Positions 10,486 through 22,685 of a DNA stretch of 45,647 bases are shown one piece after another. Source of the DNA: Heliophilum fasciatum. Its GTDB lineage: Bacteria > Bacillota > Desulfitobacteriia > Heliobacteriales > Heliobacteriaceae. Both the position numbers and the translations under genes were made by a program. Position 1 is the stretch's first letter. Each line of letters starts with the position of its first letter. Below the pieces are notes generated by a model. That model did not search any database, was not told the origin of the DNA, and was given only the letters and a program-made list of their open reading frames with translations. The stretch is taken from contig NZ_SLXT01000023.1 in the NCBI RefSeq assembly GCF_004341395.1, positions 1 to 45,647 on the forward strand, in the 5' to 3' direction.

Positions 10486-10565
10486 AAATATCTTGCACAT
10501 TTTCTTTATTTAGTTTGTACAAGCTTTCTACACTTTTATTCCGTAGCTTTTTTCATGCACAAGCA

Positions 10566-11561
10566 TTATTTAATTTCTTGCCCGGGCTCTAACCAAGACG
10601 GGTTTTGTACAACCAAAGACTTTTCATCCAATGTGGCCGGATCAACGATCACTTGCTCATTGACTGTCGCCGTCACCGTGACAGGATGCCACTGGGCACG
10701 ATTTTTTTCGCTGAGCCAAACGCCTTTTTCCCCTTCGCGCTCGACGATCGCTTCCAAGGGCAACAAAATCCCTTTATGCGTTTGTTCGACATACAACAAG
10801 GATGCTTTGCGTTCTTTGATCGCATCCAGGCTAGGGTTCAGCAACTGGATTAATACCCATACGTCATCGACACCGCGCACTTGCACAACTTTACCGGAAA
10901 TATTAGGGCCTGTTGGCGACATGGCCAACGTGATGCGCATTTGCGGTACCAGTGGTTTGGGCAAATCCGTCATCACATAATGAGTTAAATAATAAGCTTT
11001 TTCAATGTTATCGATGATTTTGAAGATTGGCTGTCCACGATTGACATAATCATCATTTTGTACTTCTGTCGGCTTTTCTGTCAATGCCTTCAACTGCCCC
11101 GGATCGAGTGTATCAAGGACACGTGGCGTTAACACCGACTCTAAGCCATCCATGCGAAACTCCAGTAATCCTGCCCGTGGTGCCGGCACACTTTGGGCCC
11201 CCCCCTCATCGCCCTCGGCCGCATTGCCGGACTGGAGCCCTGCTACCGGGGCACCGAGCCGCACACGCTCGCTGTCCTTGGCAATACGTTGGAATCGTCC
11301 CGCTGCCGGCGCAGAAATGATCACTTCATCACGAATAATCCATCCCGGCAACGGTCGTGTTACCGACAGTTGCCCTAATTTTGCTGGTTGCACCTCGACA
11401 ACCGCTTTCACGAACAAATGCTGCAGCTTTTCTTTGGCCCACCATACACCAAAACCACAAAGTATAATTACCGCAATAACGAGCAAAAGGCGCAGCCAAA
11501 ATTTTCGGCGGCGCTTTTTGATTGCATCTTTACCTGGAGGAACCATTGTCAAACGGGACAT
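10566..11561 (-). CDS. HlyD-like membrane fusion/efflux adaptor protein
   Basis: A protein of about 331 residues with a basic N-terminus (IKKRRRKFWLR), one transmembrane segment at about residues 22-45 and a large extracytoplasmic part. It has the barrel-like domains of HlyD-type adaptors. A lipoyl-like half (about residues 72-130) is split by a Gly/Glu-rich insert, and a second half includes YVNRGQPIFKIIDN (about residues 172-185). The C-terminal beta-barrel region contains GILLPLEAIVEREG (about residues 262-275). Such proteins link an inner-membrane transporter to downstream parts, but no ABC or RND transporter gene is adjacent. Members of this family occur upstream of yggS-sepF in several Clostridia. 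It shares a promoter region with the ylm genes. Function beyond the family is unknown, and the exact start is uncertain. Confidence 0.75.
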   Translation of the reverse strand: MSRLTMVPPGKDAIKKRRRKFWLRLLLVIAVIILCGFGVWWAKEKLQHLFVKAVVEVQPAKLGQLSVTRPLPGWIIRDEVIISAPAAGRFQRIAKDSERVRLGAPVAGLQSGNAAEGDEGGAQSVPAPRAGLLEFRMDGLESVLTPRVLDTLDPGQLKALTEKPTEVQNDDYVNRGQPIFKIIDNIEKAYYLTHYVMTDLPKPLVPQMRITLAMSPTGPNISGKVVQVRGVDDVWVLIQLLNPSLDAIKERKASLLYVEQTHKGILLPLEAIVEREGEKGVWLSEKNRAQWHPVTVTATVNEQVIVDPATLDEKSLVVQNPSWLEPGQEIK

Positions 11562-11751: not shown

Positions 11752-12411
11752 TTACGGGTTGAGTTCTTTACGTTCACCGGTGACGAGATAGACGACCGTT
11801 TCAGCAATATTGGTCGCGTGATCACCAAAGCGCTCCAGGTAACGAGCGATAAAGATCAATTGTGTCGCTTGATTGATTACCGAAGGATCTTTCAACATCA
11901 ATTGCAGGAGATCATTAAAGATATGCTTGTAAAGCGCATCGACCTGATTATCGAGGTCACTCATCTTGATGGCCAGTTCAATGTCCTCTTGCAAGTATGC
12001 GTCAAGCCCCATTTTAACCATTTGCTGACATACACTGGACATGATCGGTGTATTAACCAGCGTTTTTACATAGGGTTGTTCCGCAATCCGCCGGACCGAT
12101 TTAGCTACACCGCAGGCATTATCAGCCATTCGCTCCAATTCCAGAGATATCCGCCAAGCACTGCTGATCTTGCGCAGATCTTTAGCCATCGGCTGCTGTA
12201 AAGCGATCAGCTTCATGCAGCGTTCTTCCACGTCATGCTGTAATCGATCGATGCGATCATCATTGGCAATGACCTGGCTTGCTAACTGGCGATCTTGATC
12301 AAGCAACGCCTTCGTGCTTAAGGAAATCGCCTCTTCCACATAAGATCCCATCCGGAGGAGGTCTTGTTGCAACGTCTCCAAGGCATGATGAAAATCACTG
12401 CGTACGGACAT
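11752..12411 (-). CDS. phoU: Phosphate transport system regulator PhoU
   Basis: The 219-residue protein has the two PhoU repeats of three helices each. Each has metal-binding type motifs: an E..D-rich helix near VIANDDRIDRLQHDVE (about residues 47-62) and DNQVDALYKHI in the second half. IARYLERFGDHATNIAE (about residues 185-201) is the classical PhoU signature. PhoU restrains PhoR signalling and Pst uptake when phosphate is plentiful. I chose the ATG at 12411 because AAAGGGTGG precedes it; a GTG 9 nt upstream sits on that sequence. It is the last gene of the pst operon. Confidence 0.96.
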   Translation of the reverse strand: MSVRSDFHHALETLQQDLLRMGSYVEEAISLSTKALLDQDRQLASQVIANDDRIDRLQHDVEERCMKLIALQQPMAKDLRKISSAWRISLELERMADNACGVAKSVRRIAEQPYVKTLVNTPIMSSVCQQMVKMGLDAYLQEDIELAIKMSDLDNQVDALYKHIFNDLLQLMLKDPSVINQATQLIFIARYLERFGDHATNIAETVVYLVTGERKELNP

Positions 12412-12431
12412 TTTATCCACCCTTTCTGCGC

Positions 12432-13190
12432 TTAGCCAAATCGTCCTGTAATGTAGTCTTCAGTGCGCTGATCTTTCGGGGTAGTAAAAATGACTTCCGT
12501 ATGATCAAACTCCACGAGATCACCAACTAAGAAAAAAGCTGTTTTATCAGAAATACGGGCCGCTTGTTGCATATTGTGCGTCACAATGACGATAGTATAC
12601 TGGGCTTTCAGTTCCCGGATCAGCTCTTCGATCTTTAATGTCGAAATCGGGTCCAGAGCCGACGTAGGCTCATCCATGAGCAAGACTTCCGGCTGGATCG
12701 CCAACGCGCGAGCGATACAAAGACGCTGTTGCTGGCCACCGGACAAACCAAGGGCCGGCTTATGGAGACGATCTTTGACTTCATCCCACAACGCTGCCTG
12801 TTTCAGCGACTTCTCGACGATCTCTTCAAGCTTGGTTTTGTCTTTCAAGCCATGTAATTTCGGCGCATAGGCCACGTTATCAAAGATGCTTTTGGGAAAA
12901 GGATTCGGTGCCTGAAAGACCATGCCGACTCGTTTGCGCAAGGCCACCACATCGGTTGTCGGCGCGTAGATGTCAGTGTCCTCAAACATCAATGTACCAT
13001 CGACACGACAGATGGGAATAATATCATTCATACGGTTGAGACAACGTAAGAAGGTCGACTTACCGCAACCGGACGGACCGATCAGCGCCGTTACTTCCCG
13101 GTCTCTAATCGTCATATCAATGCCATGAAGTGCGTGAAAATCACCGTAATATAAGTTCAAGTCTTCAGAAACAATTTTTGCCTTATTCAT
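12432..13190 (-). CDS. pstB: Phosphate ABC transporter ATP-binding protein PstB
   Basis: The 252-residue ATPase has the Walker A motif [16 protein letters not shown], a Q-loop within [15 protein letters not shown], the ABC signature [15 protein letters not shown] and Walker [14 protein letters not shown]. The PstB-typical residues after Walker A ([10 protein letters not shown]) and the [10 protein letters not shown] stretch near the end identify it as the phosphate importer ATPase. The ATG follows GGAGGAGCC. It lies 9 nt after pstA and 20 nt before phoU. Confidence 0.98.
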
Positions 13191-13199
13191 TGGCTCCTC

Positions 13200-14045
13200 C
13201 TATACCTTACGCATCCGGCGGAAATAGGATCGCAACACAACGGCGATCATATTCAGCCCCAGCACAATCATCAATAAGATCATTGCCGTTCCATAGGGTA
13301 TCTTGGGATCGGCATTGGGCACTTGCGTTGCAATTACGTAAAGATGATAAGGCAAGGCCATGACTTGGTCAAAAATAGTCTTCGGCAAGTGGGGCAGGAA
13401 GAAAGCAGCTGCCGTCAACAAAATCGGTGCCGTTTCACCGGCAGCCCGAGCCACGCCCAAAATCGCCCCCGTCAATATCCCGGGAAGGGCGTTGGGTAAA
13501 ACGATAAATAAAATGGTCTGAAGTTTCGTGGCGCCCAGCGCCAGGCTGGCTTCGCGATACCCGTTCGGTACCGTGCGCAGTGCTTCTTCTGAAGTGGTGA
13601 TGATGACGGGCAAGGTCATCAACGCTAACGTGAGTGAGCCCGCTAAGATGGAAACACCCATCTCCAGATAAAGCACAAAGAAACCGAGCCCAAACAAACC
13701 AAAGACAACAGAAGGAACACCGGCCAAGTTAACGACAGCCAAGCGGATCAAGCGCGTGAGCCATGATTCGCGGGCATATTCTACCAAGTAAATCGATGTC
13801 ATCACTCCGATAGGCAGTGCCAGCATGATCGTACCTGCGACGAGAATCATCGTACCAACGATGGCCGGGAAAATTCCACCTGCCGTCATCCCTTTGCGCG
13901 GTGCTTCAGAGATGAACTCCCAATTCAGTGCTGGGATTCCTTTGATGGCAATTTCACCAATGACGATCGCCAGCGCCAGTACGATCAACGCCGCCATAGC
14001 TCGCAGGACATTAAAGGCGATTTTCTCAGTTGTTTTTGGTGACAT
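13200..14045 (-). CDS. pstA: Phosphate ABC transporter permease PstA
   Basis: A permease of about 281 residues with six hydrophobic segments; it forms the phosphate channel with PstC. The cytoplasmic EAA-type loop is visible as GYREASLALGATKLQTI (about residues 182-198). The PstA-like end AILGVARAAGETAPILLTA is also present. I chose the ATG at 14045, with GAGGTTGAG upstream, rather than a TTG inside the pstC end; this leaves pstA starting 2 nt after the pstC stop. Translation is likely coupled. Confidence 0.96.
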   Translation of the reverse strand: MSPKTTEKIAFNVLRAMAALIVLALAIVIGEIAIKGIPALNWEFISEAPRKGMTAGGIFPAIVGTMILVAGTIMLALPIGVMTSIYLVEYARESWLTRLIRLAVVNLAGVPSVVFGLFGLGFFVLYLEMGVSILAGSLTLALMTLPVIITTSEEALRTVPNGYREASLALGATKLQTILFIVLPNALPGILTGAILGVARAAGETAPILLTAAAFFLPHLPKTIFDQVMALPYHLYVIATQVPNADPKIPYGTAMILLMIVLGLNMIAVVLRSYFRRMRKV

Positions 14046-14046
14046 C

Positions 14047-15006
14047 TTACTCAACCTCTTTCATACGATGACGGATAAAATCAGCGATCAGGTTGATGGC
14101 CAATGTCATGGCAAAAAGCACAGCTCCGACGATGAATAAGGCATGATAATGCTGACTGCCCCGGGCGACTTCTCCCATTTCAGCGGCGATGGTCGCAGTC
14201 ATGGTTCGTACCGGTACAAGCATGGAATCTGGCAAAAGCCCGGCATTGCCGGTAACCATCAATACGGTCATTGTTTCCCCAATGGCCCGGCCGATACCGA
14301 GCATGATCGATGCCGTGATTCCCGACAGCGCTGCCGGAACAATCACCGTAACAATCGCTTGCCAACGAGTCGACCCCATGGAAAGAGCCGCTTCCATATA
14401 ACGCCCTGGAACGGCCGAGATAGCATCCTCGGAGATCGATGCGATCGTCGGCAGCGCCATCAAGGCCAGCGTCAATGCGCCGGTCAACGCCGTTAACCCG
14501 GTAGGAATATCAAAAAGGCTTTTGATCTCCGGTGCCAACACAGCCAACCCGAAAAAACCAAGTACAACCGAGGGAATGCCGGCCAGCACTTCAATCGTTG
14601 GCTTAAGGATCTCCCGCACCGTAGGACCGGCGACCATCGACAGATAGATGGCTGCACCCACGCCAAGAGGCACGGAAATCACAATCGCCCCGGCCGTAAC
14701 GATCACTGACCCAGCAATCAATGGTAATAAACCAAAAGTCGGCGGATCCGAAATGGGATACCAGTTTTTCATTCCCAAGGTAGCCAGTGATGCATCGTTC
14801 AGCAATAACGGCACGGCTTCTTTAAATAAGAAAATAAAAATCATGAATACGGTCAGTACGCCGATAAAGGCGGAAGCAAAAAGCATGACTTCTACAAGCT
14901 TTTCGGTGATGTACCAAGCCTCACGCTTCTTGGACTCCCCTTTTTTCAATGATTCGCGGGGAATAGAAATGATGCCGTTACCCGTGTGCTCCCCAGTAGG
15001 AATCAT
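14047..15006 (-). CDS. pstC: Phosphate ABC transporter permease PstC
   Basis: The 319-residue permease has a cytoplasmic N-terminal tail of about 40 residues and six hydrophobic segments. The EAA loop reads GRYMEAALSMGSTRWQAI, and the next segment contains GIGRAIGETMTVLMVTGNA, as in PstC. The ATG follows TAAGGAGGGTTTACG, a near-perfect ribosome binding site. It is separated from pstS by 133 nt that hold a terminator-like hairpin, so it is probably expressed at lower level than pstS. Confidence 0.97.
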   Translation of the reverse strand: MIPTGEHTGNGIISIPRESLKKGESKKREAWYITEKLVEVMLFASAFIGVLTVFMIFIFLFKEAVPLLLNDASLATLGMKNWYPISDPPTFGLLPLIAGSVIVTAGAIVISVPLGVGAAIYLSMVAGPTVREILKPTIEVLAGIPSVVLGFFGLAVLAPEIKSLFDIPTGLTALTGALTLALMALPTIASISEDAISAVPGRYMEAALSMGSTRWQAIVTVIVPAALSGITASIMLGIGRAIGETMTVLMVTGNAGLLPDSMLVPVRTMTATIAAEMGEVARGSQHYHALFIVGAVLFAMTLAINLIADFIRHRMKEVE

Positions 15007-15139: not shown

Positions 15140-16036
15140 CTATTTTACAGCGATGAAATCCATTTTCTTCACAATCGCCTGGCCTTCGGCGCTCAGCATG
15201 AAGTCGACAAAACTTTTGCTCAAGCCTTCCGGCTCACCAGCAGAATAAACATAGAGTGGACGCGATACGGGATAGGTTTTGTCTTTTACTGTAGCTTCTG
15301 ACGGCAACACTGCCGGCGATCCCGCATCCTTTTTCACAGCAATCACTTTGACTTTATCGGTGAGATAGCCCATGCCGACATAGCCGATCGCTTGTTTGTT
15401 CGTTTCTGCTTCTTTGGCAATGGAAGCACTGGAGGTTTGCAACAATGCATCAGCTCGATATTCCTGATTTTTCATCAGATGTTCTTTAACGAATACGTGG
15501 GTTCCCGAAGAAGCTTCCCGTGCCAGAGCGACGATTTTTTCATCGTTGCCACCGACTTCTTTCCAGTTCGATATTTTACCTGTATAGATGTTCGCCAATT
15601 GCTCGTTCGTCAGTTCGTTAACCGGATTCTCTTTGTTCACGATAAAACCGATGCCGTCCATAGCAATCGCGTATTCCTTGACATCCTTGCCTGTAGCTTC
15701 CTTGATTTTGGCCTTTTCTTCAGCTTTGATTTCACGGGAAGAGTTAGCCAGGTCACAAGTTTTGTTGGTCAGCGCAGCGATCCCTGTCCCCGAGCCACCA
15801 CCGGTTACGGCAATCGTTGCTTGGGGGTTTTTGGCCATGAAATCTTCCGCCATCGCTTGACTCAGGTTAACAATGGTATCGGACCCTTTAACTTGTAAAG
15901 AACCTTTGATTCCAGAAGTGGGCGCACCGCCGGTGTTTTCTTGTTTGGCACCACCGCCACATCCGGCCACCACTGTACCGAGCATCCCGAAAACAACAGA
16001 AACAGCCACTAACTTAGAGATCTTTTTGAAGTTCAT
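15140..16036 (-). CDS. pstS: Phosphate-binding lipoprotein PstS
   Basis: The 298-residue protein begins with a lipoprotein signal peptide: basic MNFKKISK, then a hydrophobic core and the lipobox VAGC (Cys about 26). The mature part opens with a short Gly/Ala linker and then the PstS fold. Phosphate-binding motifs visible are GSDTIVNLSQAMAEDF and GGGSGTGIAAL (about residues 80-90), and a later ASSGTHVFVKEHL (about residues 176-188). It captures phosphate outside the membrane for PstCAB. TAAGGAGGTAATT lies before the ATG. It is the first gene of the Pho-controlled operon. Confidence 0.97.
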   Translation of the reverse strand: MNFKKISKLVAVSVVFGMLGTVVAGCGGGAKQENTGGAPTSGIKGSLQVKGSDTIVNLSQAMAEDFMAKNPQATIAVTGGGSGTGIAALTNKTCDLANSSREIKAEEKAKIKEATGKDVKEYAIAMDGIGFIVNKENPVNELTNEQLANIYTGKISNWKEVGGNDEKIVALAREASSGTHVFVKEHLMKNQEYRADALLQTSSASIAKEAETNKQAIGYVGMGYLTDKVKVIAVKKDAGSPAVLPSEATVKDKTYPVSRPLYVYSAGEPEGLSKSFVDFMLSAEGQAIVKKMDFIAVK

Positions 16037-16095: not shown

Positions 16096-16149
16096 AGAAT
16101 ACAAAAGAAAAATTAGGGCACAATGAATATTCCGTTAAGAAAGTGTTAA
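16096..16149 (-). promoter_or_regulatory. Pho box and promoter upstream of pstS
   Basis: Reading the minus strand there are four hexamers spaced exactly 11 bp apart: TTAACA (16144-16149), TTAACG (16133-16138), TTCATT (16122-16127) and CTAATT (16111-16116). TATTCT at 16096-16101 is a fitting -10. This is the layout of PhoP-binding direct repeats (TT(A/C/T)ACA, 4-6 bp apart). The first two repeats overlap the last codons of the GGDEF/EAL gene. Confidence 0.8.
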
Positions 16150-18453
16150 GACCTTGACTTCCTCGACGACGTATCCGGAGCCCGGCTGTTGCTTGGCTCT
16201 TTTTTTGACCCTGGCCGCCACTTCACCAATCTGTGATACATGAGCAAATCGACCGGTAACAACCGATAAAGAAATGGACATCACTGGATAACGGCAAGGG
16301 TTTCCTTGCCGATCACGACCGTCAATATATCCGGCTTGTCGGTCACGCTCCAGATATAACTCGCCAATGCGCCGGTCAAACTCACAGACAATACGATCGC
16401 ACAACTCCTGATAAGATGATGTGGTAACGATGATCCAATCATCACCGCCGATGTGGCCGACAAAATCATCAGGACAACCTTGATTCTGCACGGCCGTAGA
16501 TAGAATCTGCGCCGTCAACTTAATGGCTTGATCACCCTGTTCAAAACCGTAATAGTCATTAAAAGCCTTAAAATGATCGAGATCAGCATAGATCACGGTA
16601 AACGCCTGTCCGGCTTCACAACGCCGCTCCATATCTTCTTTAATCTGAAGGTTACCGGGCATCCCCGTTAAGGGATTGGCCCCCAGTGCCCGCTCGATCT
16701 GCAGGCCGGTCATTTGATCAAGCAACGCGCGCACTGAAACAACGCCAACGCACACCTTTTCTTCGTTCACTACGATGATATGATCATAAAGGCGCTGCAT
16801 CTGTCGGGCTGTAGCCAGATGGGCAACGCGATCAATACGCATCGCCGTGTCGACAATTAAAGGATTGCGATCCATGATTAAAGAAACGGGGCGCTGCCCA
16901 TAGAGCGCCAAGCCATATTTATTGACCATTTGCCCATAGAGCTTATCACGCATCAGCAAGCCTACCGGGCGCATCCCATCGACAATCACCAAGCTGAAAG
17001 CATTGCTGTTGGTTTGGAAAAAATCAAGTGCCTGATGGGTTGGTGCATTCTGCGCGAGCCCATGAAAGGCCTCAACCAGTTCCCCTACCGGCATCATCGT
17101 TCCCATCTCATCAGCGGGCTTCTGTTGCTTGAGTTCCCCTAAAACTCGCTGTGCTTCGCCGGTCAAAGCTTTTTTCTCAGGGCTGGGACGACCTAAAAAA
17201 TAGCCTTGGCCAATATCAACTCCTAAACGATGCAACCAGCGTAACTCCGCTTCCGTTTCAATCCCTTCGGCAATGATCTGTATACCAAGGCGCTTCGCAA
17301 AAGAAACAAAAATCTCGGCCATGGCTTGTTTGATCACCGATGTATCAATATGATGAATCAACGACATATCAATTTTTATATAATCAGGGATAATTTCGGC
17401 AATCGATTGCAAACTCGAATAGCCGGCACCCGCATCATCAACAGCTACTTGAAAACCGACGTTGCGAAACCGTTCCAACTTCTTATCAAAACTGCGAAAA
17501 TCGTCGATACTCTGACGTTCGGTAATCTCAAAGACGATCTGTCCCGGATCGCGACCAACCGAATGGACAAGCTGAAGCAGATTTTCCGGTGTAAAATCAG
17601 GATCTTGGATGACCTGGGGACTGATATTGACAAACAACCGCACGTCCTTAGGCCAATTCACAGTGCCCTGAACTGCTTTCTGGCGTAACAGACGTTCTAG
17701 CGGAAACAAAAGATTCGACTTCTCAGCCAAATCAGCGAGTCCTTGGGACCACTGCAGAGAACTTTCGCTGGGCCCACGGCTAAGCGCTTCATAACCCATG
17801 ATTTTTCCGCTTGCCATATCGACAAGCGGCTGATAGTGAATCGAGAAGCGCTCCTCTTTGATGGCTTCCCGCAACTCCCAGACTTGGCGAGTCCATTTTG
17901 CGTCCTCGTTCCCCTTTGCCATTTGACGGGCTTCTTTTAGCCCTTTATAAATTAAAGTTTCCAGGCTTAACTCCGATGATGCAAGAAGTATCGACCAGCC
18001 GCGGTGTAAATCAAGCGGTTCCTGCAACACACCCTGCAATTGACGGTTAACGCTGCTCAGCACCTGCGTGCAAAGATCTTCAGCTAAGCATTCTAAAAAA
18101 TCCAACCCTTGTAATGTCCCTACCGAAGGCAGTGAGTAATACAACACAAAATCATCGCCACCGACGTTATGAACAAACAACGTACGTCCCACACTCAGTA
18201 GGGGCCGTGCCTGCAAAATTGATCGTGTCACCGTTTTTAACACACGACGGGCAACCGGTGCCCCATAATGCTGTTCGATATGAGTCAATCCCACGATATC
18301 GAGAAAAATGATTCCAATACTTCGACGCCGTTGTAAATTCAACTCAACTTGCTCAAATACTTCACTGCCCGATGTTGTGGCCGAGTAAAACCGATGTTCA
18401 TCAGGTATTTTATGCTCCTGTAGCCAATTCATCCATGACTGTTGTGAACGCAC
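16135..18453 (-). CDS. GGDEF-EAL-CBS-GGDEF c-di-GMP protein
   Basis: A soluble 772-residue protein with four parts. The first is an N-terminal GGDEF-like domain (site GGDDF, residues 98-102). The second is an EAL domain (about residues 195-430) with an intact set of motifs: EAL at 222-224, NISP at 276-279, FEITE at 308-312, DDAGAGYSS at 339-347, KID at 360-362, AEGIET at 395-400 and GQGYFLGRP at 415-423. The third is a CBS-pair-like module (about 450-590) and the fourth a second GGDEF domain (about 590-755; site GGDDW at 669-673). Both cyclase sites have Asp for the usual Glu, so cyclase activity is doubtful, whereas phosphodiesterase activity looks possible. No membrane segments are seen. 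The GTG start at 18453 has GGAGGG upstream and overlaps the chemoreceptor gene by 44 nt. Confidence 0.93.
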
Positions 18454-19666
18454 CCTGCGGTCCCTCCTCCTCGCTGCTCATTGATGATGTCACCGCCGTG
18501 GTAGCGCTTTCGCCTGCTGTTTTCTGCGCCTGTTCAACCAAAACACGGATCGCTTGCAGTAATTCTTCCGATTCCTGAGCAATATCGTGGGCAAGACCGG
18601 TAATGCCGTTTACATGCTCTCCTGAAATCTTGATGGCACCAAATATCTGTATCCAAGCATTGTGCACCTGATCAGCAACCTTGCGAGTACTCATGCTACG
18701 GTTTTTCGCTTCTTGTGCACATCGATCGGCCTCATCGATCTTGATCAACACTTGCCGGAGTAATGATGAGATTTGACGGGCTGCCGTATTGGTCTCGTCA
18801 GCTAATTTTCTAACTTCCTCAGCGACAACAGCAAAACCACGACCATGAACGCCGGCCCTTGCTGCTTCAATCGACGCATTAAAGGCCAGCAAATTGGTTT
18901 GATCGGCTAACTGCCGAATCATCTGTGAGATCGGTTCAATTTCTTTAGATTCTTCCAATAATTGATTCATGATCTCCATCTGATGATCAACCGTTTGATC
19001 GATCGTATCAATTTCATGTAATGCTTGGTTTAAAGCAAGCCGTCCCTCATCGGTATAGCCATTCATCTGTTCAGCGTTGCGGTGTGCCTCAACCGATAGA
19101 TCGGCGATTGCTTGCGCTTGATCGGTAATGAGTGCGATCCGTTCCGATGTTTGTGTCAAGAGACTGGCCTGTCCACGGGCCACATTGACTTGATTGCAAT
19201 TCATCAATGTTAACAGCTTTTTGATCGTGATCATCCCTACACAGCGACCTTGATTCGTAATGATCACATTATCATAAAGCGTCGCTGCCTCCCGTTGCGT
19301 AGCCAGTTGACATACGTCGATCACCAGTGCTTGCTGATCGACAATAATACAATCGCTGGTCATGATCCGCCGAACCGGTCGATCATAATACACCGATACA
19401 CCATAGCGCTTACCTAAATGAGCAAAAAGTTGATCACGCATCACCAATCCCAGCGGTTTTTTTCCCCCCGAGACAATAACAACACCATTATAATTTTGAT
19501 TTTCTTCAAGAAACGCAACAACATCTCGTGTTGCCGAATTCTCACCCAGCATCGGTGCCGGTTCGGCAAAACGGCCAATCGGCATCAACGCAATCGACTC
19601 GGCTATTTTCAATTGCTCTTTCTCGCATTGCATCTTTTGTCCGTTGCGTAGCTCCTGATAGCTCAT
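18410..19666 (-). CDS. Soluble chemoreceptor (MCP) with CBS-like module
   Basis: A 418-residue methyl-accepting chemotaxis protein with no transmembrane segment. Residues about 25-165 form a CBS-pair-like module closely similar to that in the next gene product. Residues about 175-390 form the coiled-coil MCP signalling domain, whose hairpin tip reads [20 protein letters not shown] and then [17 protein letters not shown], the part that contacts CheA/CheW. Methylation-type Gln/Glu sites are likely in the flanking helices. It should therefore sense a cytoplasmic ligand. The ATG follows AAAGGAG. It is probably co-transcribed with the GGDEF/EAL gene. CBS modules often bind adenosine nucleotides; the ligand here is unknown. 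Confidence 0.93.
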
Positions 19667-19732
19667 TCTTTTCTCCTTTATATTTTGTAAATAATTTTCA
19701 TCTAAACACTATCTGTTTTTTATTAATGCCAT

Positions 19733-19786
19733 ATAAAAAAAAGGTTATGTTGCTATTAAGTTTTACTTAATAAGCAGCATAACCTT
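19733..19786 (-). terminator. Intrinsic terminator after phoR
   Basis: A long stem runs AAGGTTATGCTGCTTATTAA and pairs across a short loop with TTAATAGCAACATAACCTT (about 20 bp with bulges), followed by TTTTTTTT on the minus strand. It closes the phoP-phoR unit and separates it from the chemoreceptor gene. Confidence 0.93.
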
Positions 19787-19790
19787 AATT

Positions 19791-21182
19791 TCACTTTAAA
19801 GGTAATGTAACCCTAAAAGTACTTCCTTGTCCAAATTTTGATGTTACAAGCACATGACCACCGCATCCCTCGACCAAGTGCTTGACAATGGCTAAGCCTA
19901 GTCCGGTCCCGCCCATCTCACGGGAACGAGCCTTATCGACACGATAAAAACGTTCAAAAATACGAGGCAAACTTTCCTGAGGAATGCCGATTCCGGTGTC
20001 AATGATCTCAACGACTACACCTTCAACGGTTCGGTTGGCCGTTACACTGACTTGACCTCCGGCCAGGGTGTACTTAATCGCATTTTCCACTAAGTTAACC
20101 AACACTTGTCGCAGCGGATCCGGCCCCAGCGGTACCGGCGGCAATGCCTTTTCTACATGAAAAGTGATCGCGATATTTTTTTCGTTGGCTAAAGGCTCCA
20201 ACAATTGTTGCACTTGACGTAAGGCAGTCTCCAGCGATGACTTTTCTGCGAAAGGTTGCTCCCGCTGACTTTCAATACTCGATAGCTGTAACAAGTCTTC
20301 AATCAAACGCTGTAAGCGGCAAGTCTCTTCTTCGATAATCGATAAAAAACGGTAAGCAACTTCCGGTTGTTCCACCGCTCCGTCGCGCAACGTTTCGACA
20401 AATCCTTTAATGGAGGTTAAGGGCGTTCGCAACTCGTGCGATACATTGGCCACAAACTCTGTCCGTACTTGCTCTAACCGGCGAACTTCCGACACATCAT
20501 CAAGCACCATGACAGCTCCGCCAAAACTTTGCTGTTCACTCCAAACCGGCACAATCTGCACCCGGTAGGTTTGACTGCGATGGGGCCATAACTGCAGTTC
20601 TCGCGTATTGGCTTCTCCCGTTTTTAAAGCAGCCAGTAACATATCGTCTAGGGCACGAAGGCGTATGACTTCGACAAGTTGCTTACCCAATACGGCTTCT
20701 TCTCGGGCAAGCAGCATCTGTTCTGCCGCCCGGTTGAGCAAGATGATCCGGCCCAGATGATCGAAGCCAACTACCCCTTCAACCATCGACCCTAAGACCG
20801 TTTCAAACTTGCTTTTTTCATTGCGCAATTCCCCGATTTGACCACGCACCTGCTCCACCGTTTGGTTGATCACCTGTGCCAGCGTCGTTAATTCCGAGCT
20901 GTAGTGGACATCATACAAACGCACTGCCTGCCCTTGGGCTAACTTCTGTACAACTTCGACCATCTCATTGAGGATATTGGCAATGCGGCCGGCCCCGAGA
21001 AAAATAATCGTCGCCGAAAAACCCAGAAAAAAAACAAACACCGCATTCAATCCTACATGGGCGTCGGGATGAACATATCCCGCCCCCAGAAGATAGAGCC
21101 ACAACGTGGGTAGCAGCATCAGCACAAAGAACGCCAAGGTTAACCGCCAGCGCAAGCTACGCCAGCCCTGCCAGGCCATCAT
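19791..21182 (-). CDS. phoR: Sensor histidine kinase PhoR (PnpS-like)
   Basis: The 463-residue kinase has two transmembrane segments (about residues 12-34 and 44-64) with an external loop of only about 10 residues. A HAMP-like linker (about 65-115), a PAS domain (about 125-225) and the histidine kinase core follow. The H-box is FVANVSHELRTPL (His 249), the N-box is LVNLVENAIKYT, and the G boxes are DTGIGIPQESLPRIFERF and GGTGLGLAIVKH. A short external loop fits sensing through Pst/PhoU rather than a periplasmic ligand (inference from PhoR family behaviour). The ATG overlaps phoP's stop (ATGA), so the two are coupled. Confidence 0.93.
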   Translation of the reverse strand: MMAWQGWRSLRWRLTLAFFVLMLLPTLWLYLLGAGYVHPDAHVGLNAVFVFFLGFSATIIFLGAGRIANILNEMVEVVQKLAQGQAVRLYDVHYSSELTTLAQVINQTVEQVRGQIGELRNEKSKFETVLGSMVEGVVGFDHLGRIILLNRAAEQMLLAREEAVLGKQLVEVIRLRALDDMLLAALKTGEANTRELQLWPHRSQTYRVQIVPVWSEQQSFGGAVMVLDDVSEVRRLEQVRTEFVANVSHELRTPLTSIKGFVETLRDGAVEQPEVAYRFLSIIEEETCRLQRLIEDLLQLSSIESQREQPFAEKSSLETALRQVQQLLEPLANEKNIAITFHVEKALPPVPLGPDPLRQVLVNLVENAIKYTLAGGQVSVTANRTVEGVVVEIIDTGIGIPQESLPRIFERFYRVDKARSREMGGTGLGLAIVKHLVEGCGGHVLVTSKFGQGSTFRVTLPLK

Positions 21183-21877
21183 ACCGAGGGAGCGCGAAAT
21201 TTATAGCCGACACCGCGCACCGTATCAATGTACTGTGGATTTGCCGGATCCTGTTCAATTTTTTGGCGCAAATGCCGGATATGCACATCGACGGTGCGAC
21301 TGTCACCATAAAAATCATAGCCCCAGATCCGCTCCAACAGAAATTCCCGCGTAAATACTTTCCCCGGGCGAGCGGCCATCCACCGAAGTAACTCAAATTC
21401 CTTCGGTGTTAGATCTTGCTTACGCCCATTGACCAACACTTCATACCGCTCGGCGTCAATATGTAGCTCGCCGATTTGGATCGGCCCAGTCACTTGCGCA
21501 TCCACACGATTCACCCTGCGTAGCAGGGCCTTGACACGAGCCGTTAACTCACGGGGACTAAAGGGCTTGGTGATATAATCATCGGCCCCCATTTCCAATC
21601 CCAGTACTTTATCGACTTCTTCTCCCTTGGCCGTTAACATGACGATCGGCAAGTGGGCCGATCGCGAACGACCGCGTAATGCGCGGCAAACTTCCAACCC
21701 ATCCATTTTGGGCAACATCAAATCAAGGATGACAAGATCAGGAGGATCATCACTGATCAACTGTAGTGCCTTTTCCCCATCCATGGCGCTAATTACTTGA
21801 TGTCCCTCTTTTTCTAAATTAAAGCGCACTAATTCCAGAATATGACCATCATCTTCGATAACAGCGATCTTAGCCAC
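21179..21877 (-). CDS. phoP: Response regulator PhoP
   Basis: A regulator of about 232 residues. Its receiver domain has the phosphoacceptor Asp at about residue 52 (LVILDLMLPKMDG), acidic residues at IEDDG, the conserved Thr in MLTAKG and Lys in TKPFSP. The OmpR/PhoB-type winged-helix DNA-binding domain runs from about 130 to 228, with LTPKEFELLRWMA and SRTVDVHIRHLRQKI. Its expected targets include the Pho box before pstS. I chose the GTG at 21877 because AAGGAGGTG lies 6 nt upstream; it overlaps the pgeF end by 8 nt. Assignment to PhoP rests on the pairing with PhoR and closeness to pst genes. Confidence 0.93.
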   Translation of the reverse strand: MAKIAVIEDDGHILELVRFNLEKEGHQVISAMDGEKALQLISDDPPDLVILDLMLPKMDGLEVCRALRGRSRSAHLPIVMLTAKGEEVDKVLGLEMGADDYITKPFSPRELTARVKALLRRVNRVDAQVTGPIQIGELHIDAERYEVLVNGRKQDLTPKEFELLRWMAARPGKVFTREFLLERIWGYDFYGDSRTVDVHIRHLRQKIEQDPANPQYIDTVRGVGYKFRAPSV

Positions 21878-22685
21878 GCTTTCCACCTCCTTCTTCTTCC
21901 AACCAGATCAATGCACCATGGCGACCGGTACGACCGTCCCGTCGATAGGAAAAAAACTCCGGTGAGCAACAGGTACAACGATCGAGCATGGCGATCTGCC
22001 CTGCCGGTACACCGGCAGCTTCACACTGCAACTGCTGTGCCCGCGCCAGGTGCAACGTTCGCTTGCCTTGATGATCAACCTCATGCCCAAGAACCGCTGA
22101 TGCAAAGGGCCACCGCGCCATAAAAAGTTCAACGACCTCCGGACCGACGGGATAACAACAGGGGCCAATAACCGCCCCAATGGCGACCCAGATATCACCA
22201 GTATTACTGCCGGCAGCAACCATCTGCTGAATCACTTTTTCCGACAAGCCCTGCACGGTACCGCGCCAACCGGCGTGAGCGGCGGCTATCCGCCGTGCTC
22301 CGGCATCAAAGAAAAGCAGGATTCCACAATCAGCGCCAAAGACAGCCAGCGGTACACCGGTTTTGGCGGTGATCATTCCATCGGCTTCTCCCAAAGGCCG
22401 CTCCGGAACCGGCGTTGTCACATCCATCATTGCCGTGCCGTGAACTTGATCTACCGTCGCCCATGGTTGTTCCCCCATGCCGGCGGCCTGACTTAACTGG
22501 CGGCGATTGAAGGCAACCTTTTGCGCATCGTCACCGACATGAAACCCCAAGTTCAAACGATCATAAGGCGGTTCACTGGCGCCGCCGCTACGTGTAGTCA
22601 TGATCGCTTGACAACCGGGTGGCCAAACCGGCCGGTAAACTACCATATCCCCTAACTGCTGCCGTTGCCATTGGCCTTGTGGCAT
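21870..22685 (-). CDS. pgeF: Purine nucleoside phosphorylase / PgeF (YlmD, YfiH) family
   Basis: A protein of about 271 residues of the multicopper-oxidase-like PgeF/YfiH/YlmD family (formerly polyphenol oxidase, laccase domain). Metal-site motifs are DQVHGTAM (about residues 78-85) and ADCG...RIAAAHAGWRG (Cys about 119; His about 136). PgeF hydrolyses the wrong L-Ser-containing peptidoglycan precursor, and family members also have nucleoside phosphorylase activity. It normally lies beside ylmE-sepF (as ylmD), but here it is nested between nrdG and phoP. I chose the ATG at 22685 with AAGGGGCG upstream. It overlaps phoP by 8 nt. Confidence 0.92.
   Translation of the reverse strand: MPQGQWQRQQLGDMVVYRPVWPPGCQAIMTTRSGGASEPPYDRLNLGFHVGDDAQKVAFNRRQLSQAAGMGEQPWATVDQVHGTAMMDVTTPVPERPLGEADGMITAKTGVPLAVFGADCGILLFFDAGARRIAAAHAGWRGTVQGLSEKVIQQMVAAGSNTGDIWVAIGAVIGPCCYPVGPEVVELFMARWPFASAVLGHEVDHQGKRTLHLARAQQLQCEAAGVPAGQIAMLDRCTCCSPEFFSYRRDGRTGRHGALIWLEEEGGGKRG

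Follow-up and report, generated by a model that had tools for sequence, protein, structure and literature searches.

The new finding is a family of soluble CBS-domain chemoreceptors that is embedded in the pho/pst locus and, in heliobacteria, is paired with a c-di-GMP enzyme bearing the same sensor. The pair is one case of a wider rule: this CBS module is joined to several kinds of output, at or close to the pho/pst locus. In heliobacteria the two proteins seem reasonably likely to be PhoP-regulated sensors of intracellular phosphate or energy status, which would form a two-gene output arm of the Pho response and feed both chemotaxis and c-di-GMP. The pair was identified in Heliophilum fasciatum, in a window of 45,647 nucleotides (the whole stretch of DNA analysed; contig NZ_SLXT01000023.1), where the following elements lie on the minus strand in the order listed.

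21179..21886, minus strand: phoP, response regulator (ORF list and locus comparison among heliobacteria)
19791..21182, minus strand: phoR, sensor kinase (a neighbour kept in 7/7 heliobacterial loci compared)
19735..19786, minus strand: intrinsic terminator in the phoR/MCP gap, AAGGTTATG...CATAACCTT plus a T run (read directly; unlisted by the pattern scan)
18410..19666, minus strand: soluble CBS-MCP chemoreceptor, 418 aa (ORF, Pfam and hydropathy)
16135..18453, minus strand: GGDEF-EAL-CBS-GGDEF protein, 772 aa, GTG start (ORF and Pfam)
15140..16036, minus strand: pstS (named from sequence and locus order)
14047..15006, minus strand: pstC (named from locus order)
13200..14054, minus strand: pstA (named from locus order)
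12432..13190, minus strand: pstB (named from locus order and similarity)
11752..12420, minus strand: phoU (named from locus order and similarity)

The sequence-only reading had described the chemoreceptor (MCP) and GGDEF/EAL genes as two ORFs overlapping by 44 nt and located between phoPR and pst. The gene order bears out the location, and the ORF coordinates and the overlap are as described, provided that the GTG start of the EAL gene is used. A strong Shine-Dalgarno-like stretch lies within the MCP gene, ~8 nt before this GTG.

18461..18470, minus strand: Shine-Dalgarno-like stretch GGAGGAGGGA

Because the terminator separates phoR from the MCP gene, the MCP and EAL genes probably form a transcription unit of their own, separate from phoPR. 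No riboswitch or other RNA turned up when the window was searched against Rfam.

Pfam assigns EAL, GGDEF and CBS to one protein and MCPsignal and CBS to the other, all above the curated cut-offs. The domains are arranged as follows.

19172..19609, minus strand: CBS pair (Bateman) module of the MCP, residues ~20-165 (Pfam, BLASTP, AlphaFold2, Foldseek, VIA)
18512..19171, minus strand: MCP signalling coiled-coil hairpin, residues ~166-385, with canonical tip (Pfam and full-length model)
17890..18393, minus strand: N-terminal GGDEF-like domain of the EAL protein, degenerate motif GGDDF (Pfam and sequence)
17173..17877, minus strand: EAL domain, motif residues EAL, N, E, DD, K, E and Q present (Pfam and motif scan)
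16684..17118, minus strand: CBS pair module of the EAL protein, residues ~446-590 (Pfam, BLASTP)
16138..16668, minus strand: C-terminal GGDEF-like domain, motif GGDDW, without an RxxD I-site at the usual place (Pfam and sequence)

The MCP scores 118.5 bits for MCPsignal against a cut-off of 34.6, and the conserved hairpin tip is present in its sequence. It contains no transmembrane-grade hydrophobic segment (the maximum 19-residue Kyte-Doolittle mean is 1.27) and no extracytoplasmic ligand-binding domain, having a CBS pair in a soluble protein instead. By its sequence it is classed as a soluble, presumably cytoplasmic chemoreceptor. The full-length model is poor (pLDDT 66, four sequences) and was used for the helix pattern only; in it a single helix runs from the last CBS helix into the coiled coil (148-270) and returns at 276-383. 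The last CBS helix of the modelled piece (residues 140-163) points to this coiled coil.

In the second protein, the EAL domain scores 200 bits, with motifs beginning at 221, 273, 308, 338, 359, 394 and 415. With the substrate and metal residues judged against the known EAL motifs, the domain is predicted to be an active c-di-GMP phosphodiesterase. Neither GGDEF-like domain (GGDDF, GGDDW) matches the GG(D/E)EF motif of diguanylate cyclases. The EAL protein of H. chlorum (L039:9878-11683) is only 601 aa long and lacks the C-terminal GGDEF-like domain, which its sister species retains.

The proposal that the two sensory modules are homologous CBS pairs, originally made from the sequence alone, stands. 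When aligned with BLASTP over 162 residues they show 35% identity and 58% positives (E = 1e-27), a sequence likeness confirmed to be far beyond chance. For both proteins Pfam picks up the second CBS repeat alone (34.5 and 28.4 bits, cut-off 24), and the predicted fold of the MCP module contains two beta-alpha-beta-beta-alpha repeats, amounting to a full CBS pair (AlphaFold2, pLDDT 82, pTM 0.73). Comparison of this module with CBS-pair structures gives a Foldseek E of 1e-10 and VIA Z scores of up to 15.9, the closest solved folds being AcuB with AMP/ADP/Ap4A, followed by DarB and CbpB with c-di-AMP, and by AMPK with AMP.

These nearest folds would suit ordinary adenosine-nucleotide sensors (AMP/ADP/ATP or c-di-AMP) of general energy or c-di-AMP state, for which placement in the pho/pst locus merely gives the right promoter. 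Such sensors would also fit the canonical second-repeat T-x-x-D, retained in the four CBS-MCP modules that the tree includes from a distant Bacillota family (f25). However, the Asp of the ribose motif G-h-h-T/S-x-x-D is missing from both repeats in 13/13 heliobacterial modules and is also absent in 70/75 other EAL modules, and in nearly all modules Met, Gln or other residues replace the Thr/Ser of the first repeat. This account is unlikely, though it deserves some weight, and the adenosine nucleotide that the sequence-only reading had put forward as ligand is weakened, keeping the AMP/ADP/Ap4A-binding folds in its favour and losing the ribose Asp. Over 107 modules, conservation is instead concentrated at Arg125 (106/107), Tyr131 (96/107) and Asp132 (99/107, MCP numbering). 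Since the Arg and the Tyr-Asp are near-invariant while the ribose Asp is absent from the heliobacterial copies, the modules may well hold a conserved site that differs from the classical CBS ribose site and perhaps binds phosphate.

Nine Heliobacteriaceae genomes were surveyed for the MCP and EAL genes. Five have the two adjacent (Heliophilum fasciatum, G002, G005, G006 and G007), one has the MCP without the EAL gene (G001), two have the EAL gene without the MCP (G004 and G008), and one less complete genome has neither. The adjacency is conserved and the 44-nt overlap is particular to Heliophilum fasciatum, because the four other pairs overlap by 22 or 4 nt or, in two genomes, leave 7-nt gaps. 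The MCP gene has an internal deletion in G004 and G008, two Heliomicrobium-like genomes. Some 35 N-terminal residues, still MCP-like, and a C-terminal scrap survive there in a leader ORF of ~100 aa (L042:6736-7050; L043 near 10500-10800), which precedes an intact EAL gene and in L042 is overlapped by the start of that gene. With both genes in five genomes, one partner in others and MCP remnants in two, the pair is probably ancestral in Heliobacteriaceae yet separable. The two outputs are not obligately coupled, since heliobacteria can lose either partner. Linkage of the pair in relatives is supported, adjacency being kept in all five genomes with both genes; the strict pair was found only in Heliobacteriaceae, and there in 5/9.

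In all seven heliobacterial relatives with either gene, the gene is located in the pho/pst locus, and the MCP lies between phoPR and pst in every case. CheA-type kinases are present in 9/9 genomes of the family, together with 9-73 MCPsignal matches per genome, so a chemotaxis system is present for the MCP to plug into. The presence of these kinases throughout also led to rejection of the idea that MCP loss tracks a loss of chemotaxis.

Outside the Heliobacteriaceae, the module is common on EAL-GGDEF proteins across Bacillota. Linkage was scored where pstB, phoU, or pstS plus pstC/A lay nearby within the DNA read, and 40 EAL loci without the module, drawn from a subset of the same genomes, served as controls. 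By this measure pst/phoU is nearby in 32/80 module loci and 1/40 module-free EAL loci (p=3e-6) or, within matched genomes, in 10/20 and 1/40 (p=2e-5), related genomes being non-independent observations in these statistics. A single inherited arrangement is insufficient as an explanation, because the pst-linked loci span many families with differing gene orders. The phosphate half of an earlier hint at a phosphate or energy link has thereby become far stronger than suspected, both from the matched comparison and from the pho/pst placement in heliobacteria and f25. The signal may nevertheless be broader than phosphate, as 60% of the module loci outside Heliobacteriaceae have no pst gene nearby in the DNA read.

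The f25 genomes, mostly of 5-8 Mb, show the order phoR-phoP-CBS-MCP-pstB-phoU. A full-length soluble CBS-MCP homologue is present in 117/150 of them; 92 of the 117 lie no more than 5 kb from pstB, a number that rises to 105 at 8 kb, and six of these genomes have no listed pstB on the contig. The CBS-MCP is also present in two further families of f25's class. No EAL gene was found beside the f25 CBS-MCP in the loci read.

This last observation bears on a structural explanation, in which the CBS pairs are mainly dimerisation surfaces and MCP-EAL hetero-oligomers bring a c-di-GMP phosphodiesterase to the chemoreceptor array without requiring a small-molecule ligand. CBS pairs dimerise, the genes are adjacent and overlapping with homologous modules, and elsewhere an ordinary MCP is often found within 3 kb of the EAL-CBS gene (33/89 loci compared with 4/40 controls, p=0.0015). 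However, each gene survives without the other in Heliobacteriaceae, the f25 CBS-MCP has no adjoining EAL gene in the loci read, and the near-invariant Arg and Tyr-Asp resemble a ligand site more than a plain interface. Such hetero-oligomers therefore appear improbable.

Module trees place the heliobacterial MCPs in one group and the f25 MCPs in another. When the tree is constrained to join the MCP and EAL modules of heliobacteria, its fit is no worse than that of the free tree (AU 0.82), and the module sequences are compatible with a local duplication between the two heliobacterial genes. A single clade of all CBS-MCPs is unrejected (AU 0.37), though the tree separates the heliobacterial and f25 MCPs; one fusion or two would both fit. 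The joined tree would equally suit a neutral domain duplication, by which the MCP took its module from the neighbouring EAL gene, the two proteins do unrelated jobs and the pho/pst neighbourhood is incidental. With a soluble MCP carrying the same module in the pho/pst locus of the distant f25, and with pst linkage statistics that exceed chance, neutrality is very unlikely.

The module was also observed in other settings. In relatives of the same class (L102, L105, L170, L173 and similar) an ordinary MCP that lacks CBS comes after the GGDEF-EAL-CBS-GGDEF gene, in many cases near phoP-pst. In many f25 genomes a second frame, of ~500-580 aa, also bears the module and lies ~6-15 kb from the CBS-MCP (e.g. 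G493:C3:50337 and 58719), and two f25 genomes contain stand-alone CBS modules of 140-170 aa without an output domain and away from pst (L167:9608 and L168:9385). A third output occurs in the genome of Heliophilum fasciatum itself, outside the window, where the module forms the N-terminus of a CheA-like histidine kinase (L044:3062-5086, contig C1 near 118618). This kinase adjoins a CheY-like receiver, and its Hpt-like and HATPase-like parts were judged by eye from the sequence. The module is likewise found on CheA-like kinases in L045, L046, L086, L092, L101 and L109. A contig search with the MCP alone gave no match, one with the module alignment retrieved three loci from heliobacteria, plus two EAL or GGDEF proteins of more distant origin, and a module search of viral contigs found none.

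Upstream regions were scanned for four TT[ACT]ACA hexamers at 11-base spacing, the PhoP-box pattern known from Bacillus subtilis. Two such repeats were located in the window.

19721..19759, minus strand: PhoP-box-like repeat upstream of the MCP gene (weak, overlapping with the terminator; better defined in heliobacterial relatives)
16111..16149, minus strand: PhoP-box-like repeat TTAACA-N5-TTAACG-N5-TTCATT-N5-CTAATT before pstS (box scan)

Scores against this consensus are 18-20 before 6/7 heliobacterial MCP genes (one a stub), 16-20 before pstS genes and <=16 in all 72 other intergenic upstream regions, with an AT content of 64% in the test regions and 52% in the controls. A simpler 150-gene control yielded only two others that scored as high, both second pstS copies. 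The repeat is kept before the MCP remnant in the one Heliomicrobium-like genome scored. A strong PhoP-box-like repeat also accompanies the second pstS copy that Heliorestis genomes carry (L038:10928-11530, L041:5079-5957). Because of the difference in AT content, and because the repeat before the window's MCP gene overlaps the terminator, the repeats before heliobacterial MCP genes are suggestive only as a regulatory signal.

In the favoured reading, that of a two-gene output arm of the Pho response, phosphate limitation would cause PhoP to turn on the CBS-MCP, by way of which the GGDEF-EAL-CBS-GGDEF protein would be turned on as well. The CBS pair in each protein would then bind a metabolite (most likely a small molecule that bears phosphate) reporting phosphate or energy state. 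Binding to the MCP would alter the CBS pair and hence the helix running into the chemotaxis coiled coil, modulating CheA, and binding to the EAL protein would alter c-di-GMP breakdown, the flanking GGDDF and GGDDW domains being regulatory parts and not cyclases. PhoP control, the ligand, the direction of effect and the use of the same ligand by both modules are elements that we infer, as is a role of both proteins in steering lifestyle. Cell phosphate or energy status may in this way steer swimming and lifestyle switching.

A bolder proposal, offered tentatively and with somewhat less than even confidence, is that the pho/pst-locus CBS-MCPs are an undescribed class of cytoplasmic chemoreceptor with which Bacillota steer by internal phosphate or energy status and not by external phosphate. 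In heliobacteria, a c-di-GMP phosphodiesterase with this sensor would let one internal signal set both swimming and c-di-GMP. No description of a CBS-domain chemoreceptor was found in the open-access literature, an absence that is weak evidence. A family of soluble receptors placed among the pho and pst genes, both in phototrophic heliobacteria and in the majority of a large and distant Bacillota family, would connect phosphate status with motility from inside the cell. It makes the connection of phosphate starvation with chemotaxis and c-di-GMP directly testable, and it gives the widespread but unassigned EAL-CBS-GGDEF proteins a functional context.

The MCP module has the full CBS-pair fold in common with nucleotide sensors such as AcuB, DarB/CbpB, CcpN and AMPK gamma. 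Unlike these, modules of the window type are fused to chemotaxis, c-di-GMP or kinase outputs, and those of heliobacteria lack the canonical ribose-binding Asp. Among c-di-GMP proteins, Bordetella DdpB (BB2957) has two CBS domains that separate EAL from GGDEF; it shows a degenerate GGDDF and ESL in place of the EAL motif, and has no reported activity (PMC12805831). The EAL protein of the window shares this architecture of EAL, two CBS and GGDEF, and a degenerate GGDDF, but its N-terminus bears a further GGDEF-like domain, its EAL motif is intact, and it is encoded in the pho/pst locus beside a CBS-MCP. To our knowledge, phosphate taxis as known from Pseudomonas CtpH/CtpL relies on extracytoplasmic sensing. 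In Pseudomonas aeruginosa, CtpH binds phosphate and CtpL binds PstS via extracytoplasmic ligand-binding domains (PMC4926252). Those MCPs likewise link swimming to phosphate supply, in one case by way of the Pst system (PstS), whereas the MCP of the window is soluble and would read cytoplasmic state via its CBS pair. With PhoR/PhoU/PstSCAB signalling, the MCP-EAL pair has its locus, and probably its regulator, in common; it would add motility and c-di-GMP outputs that lie outside the described Pho signalling complex.
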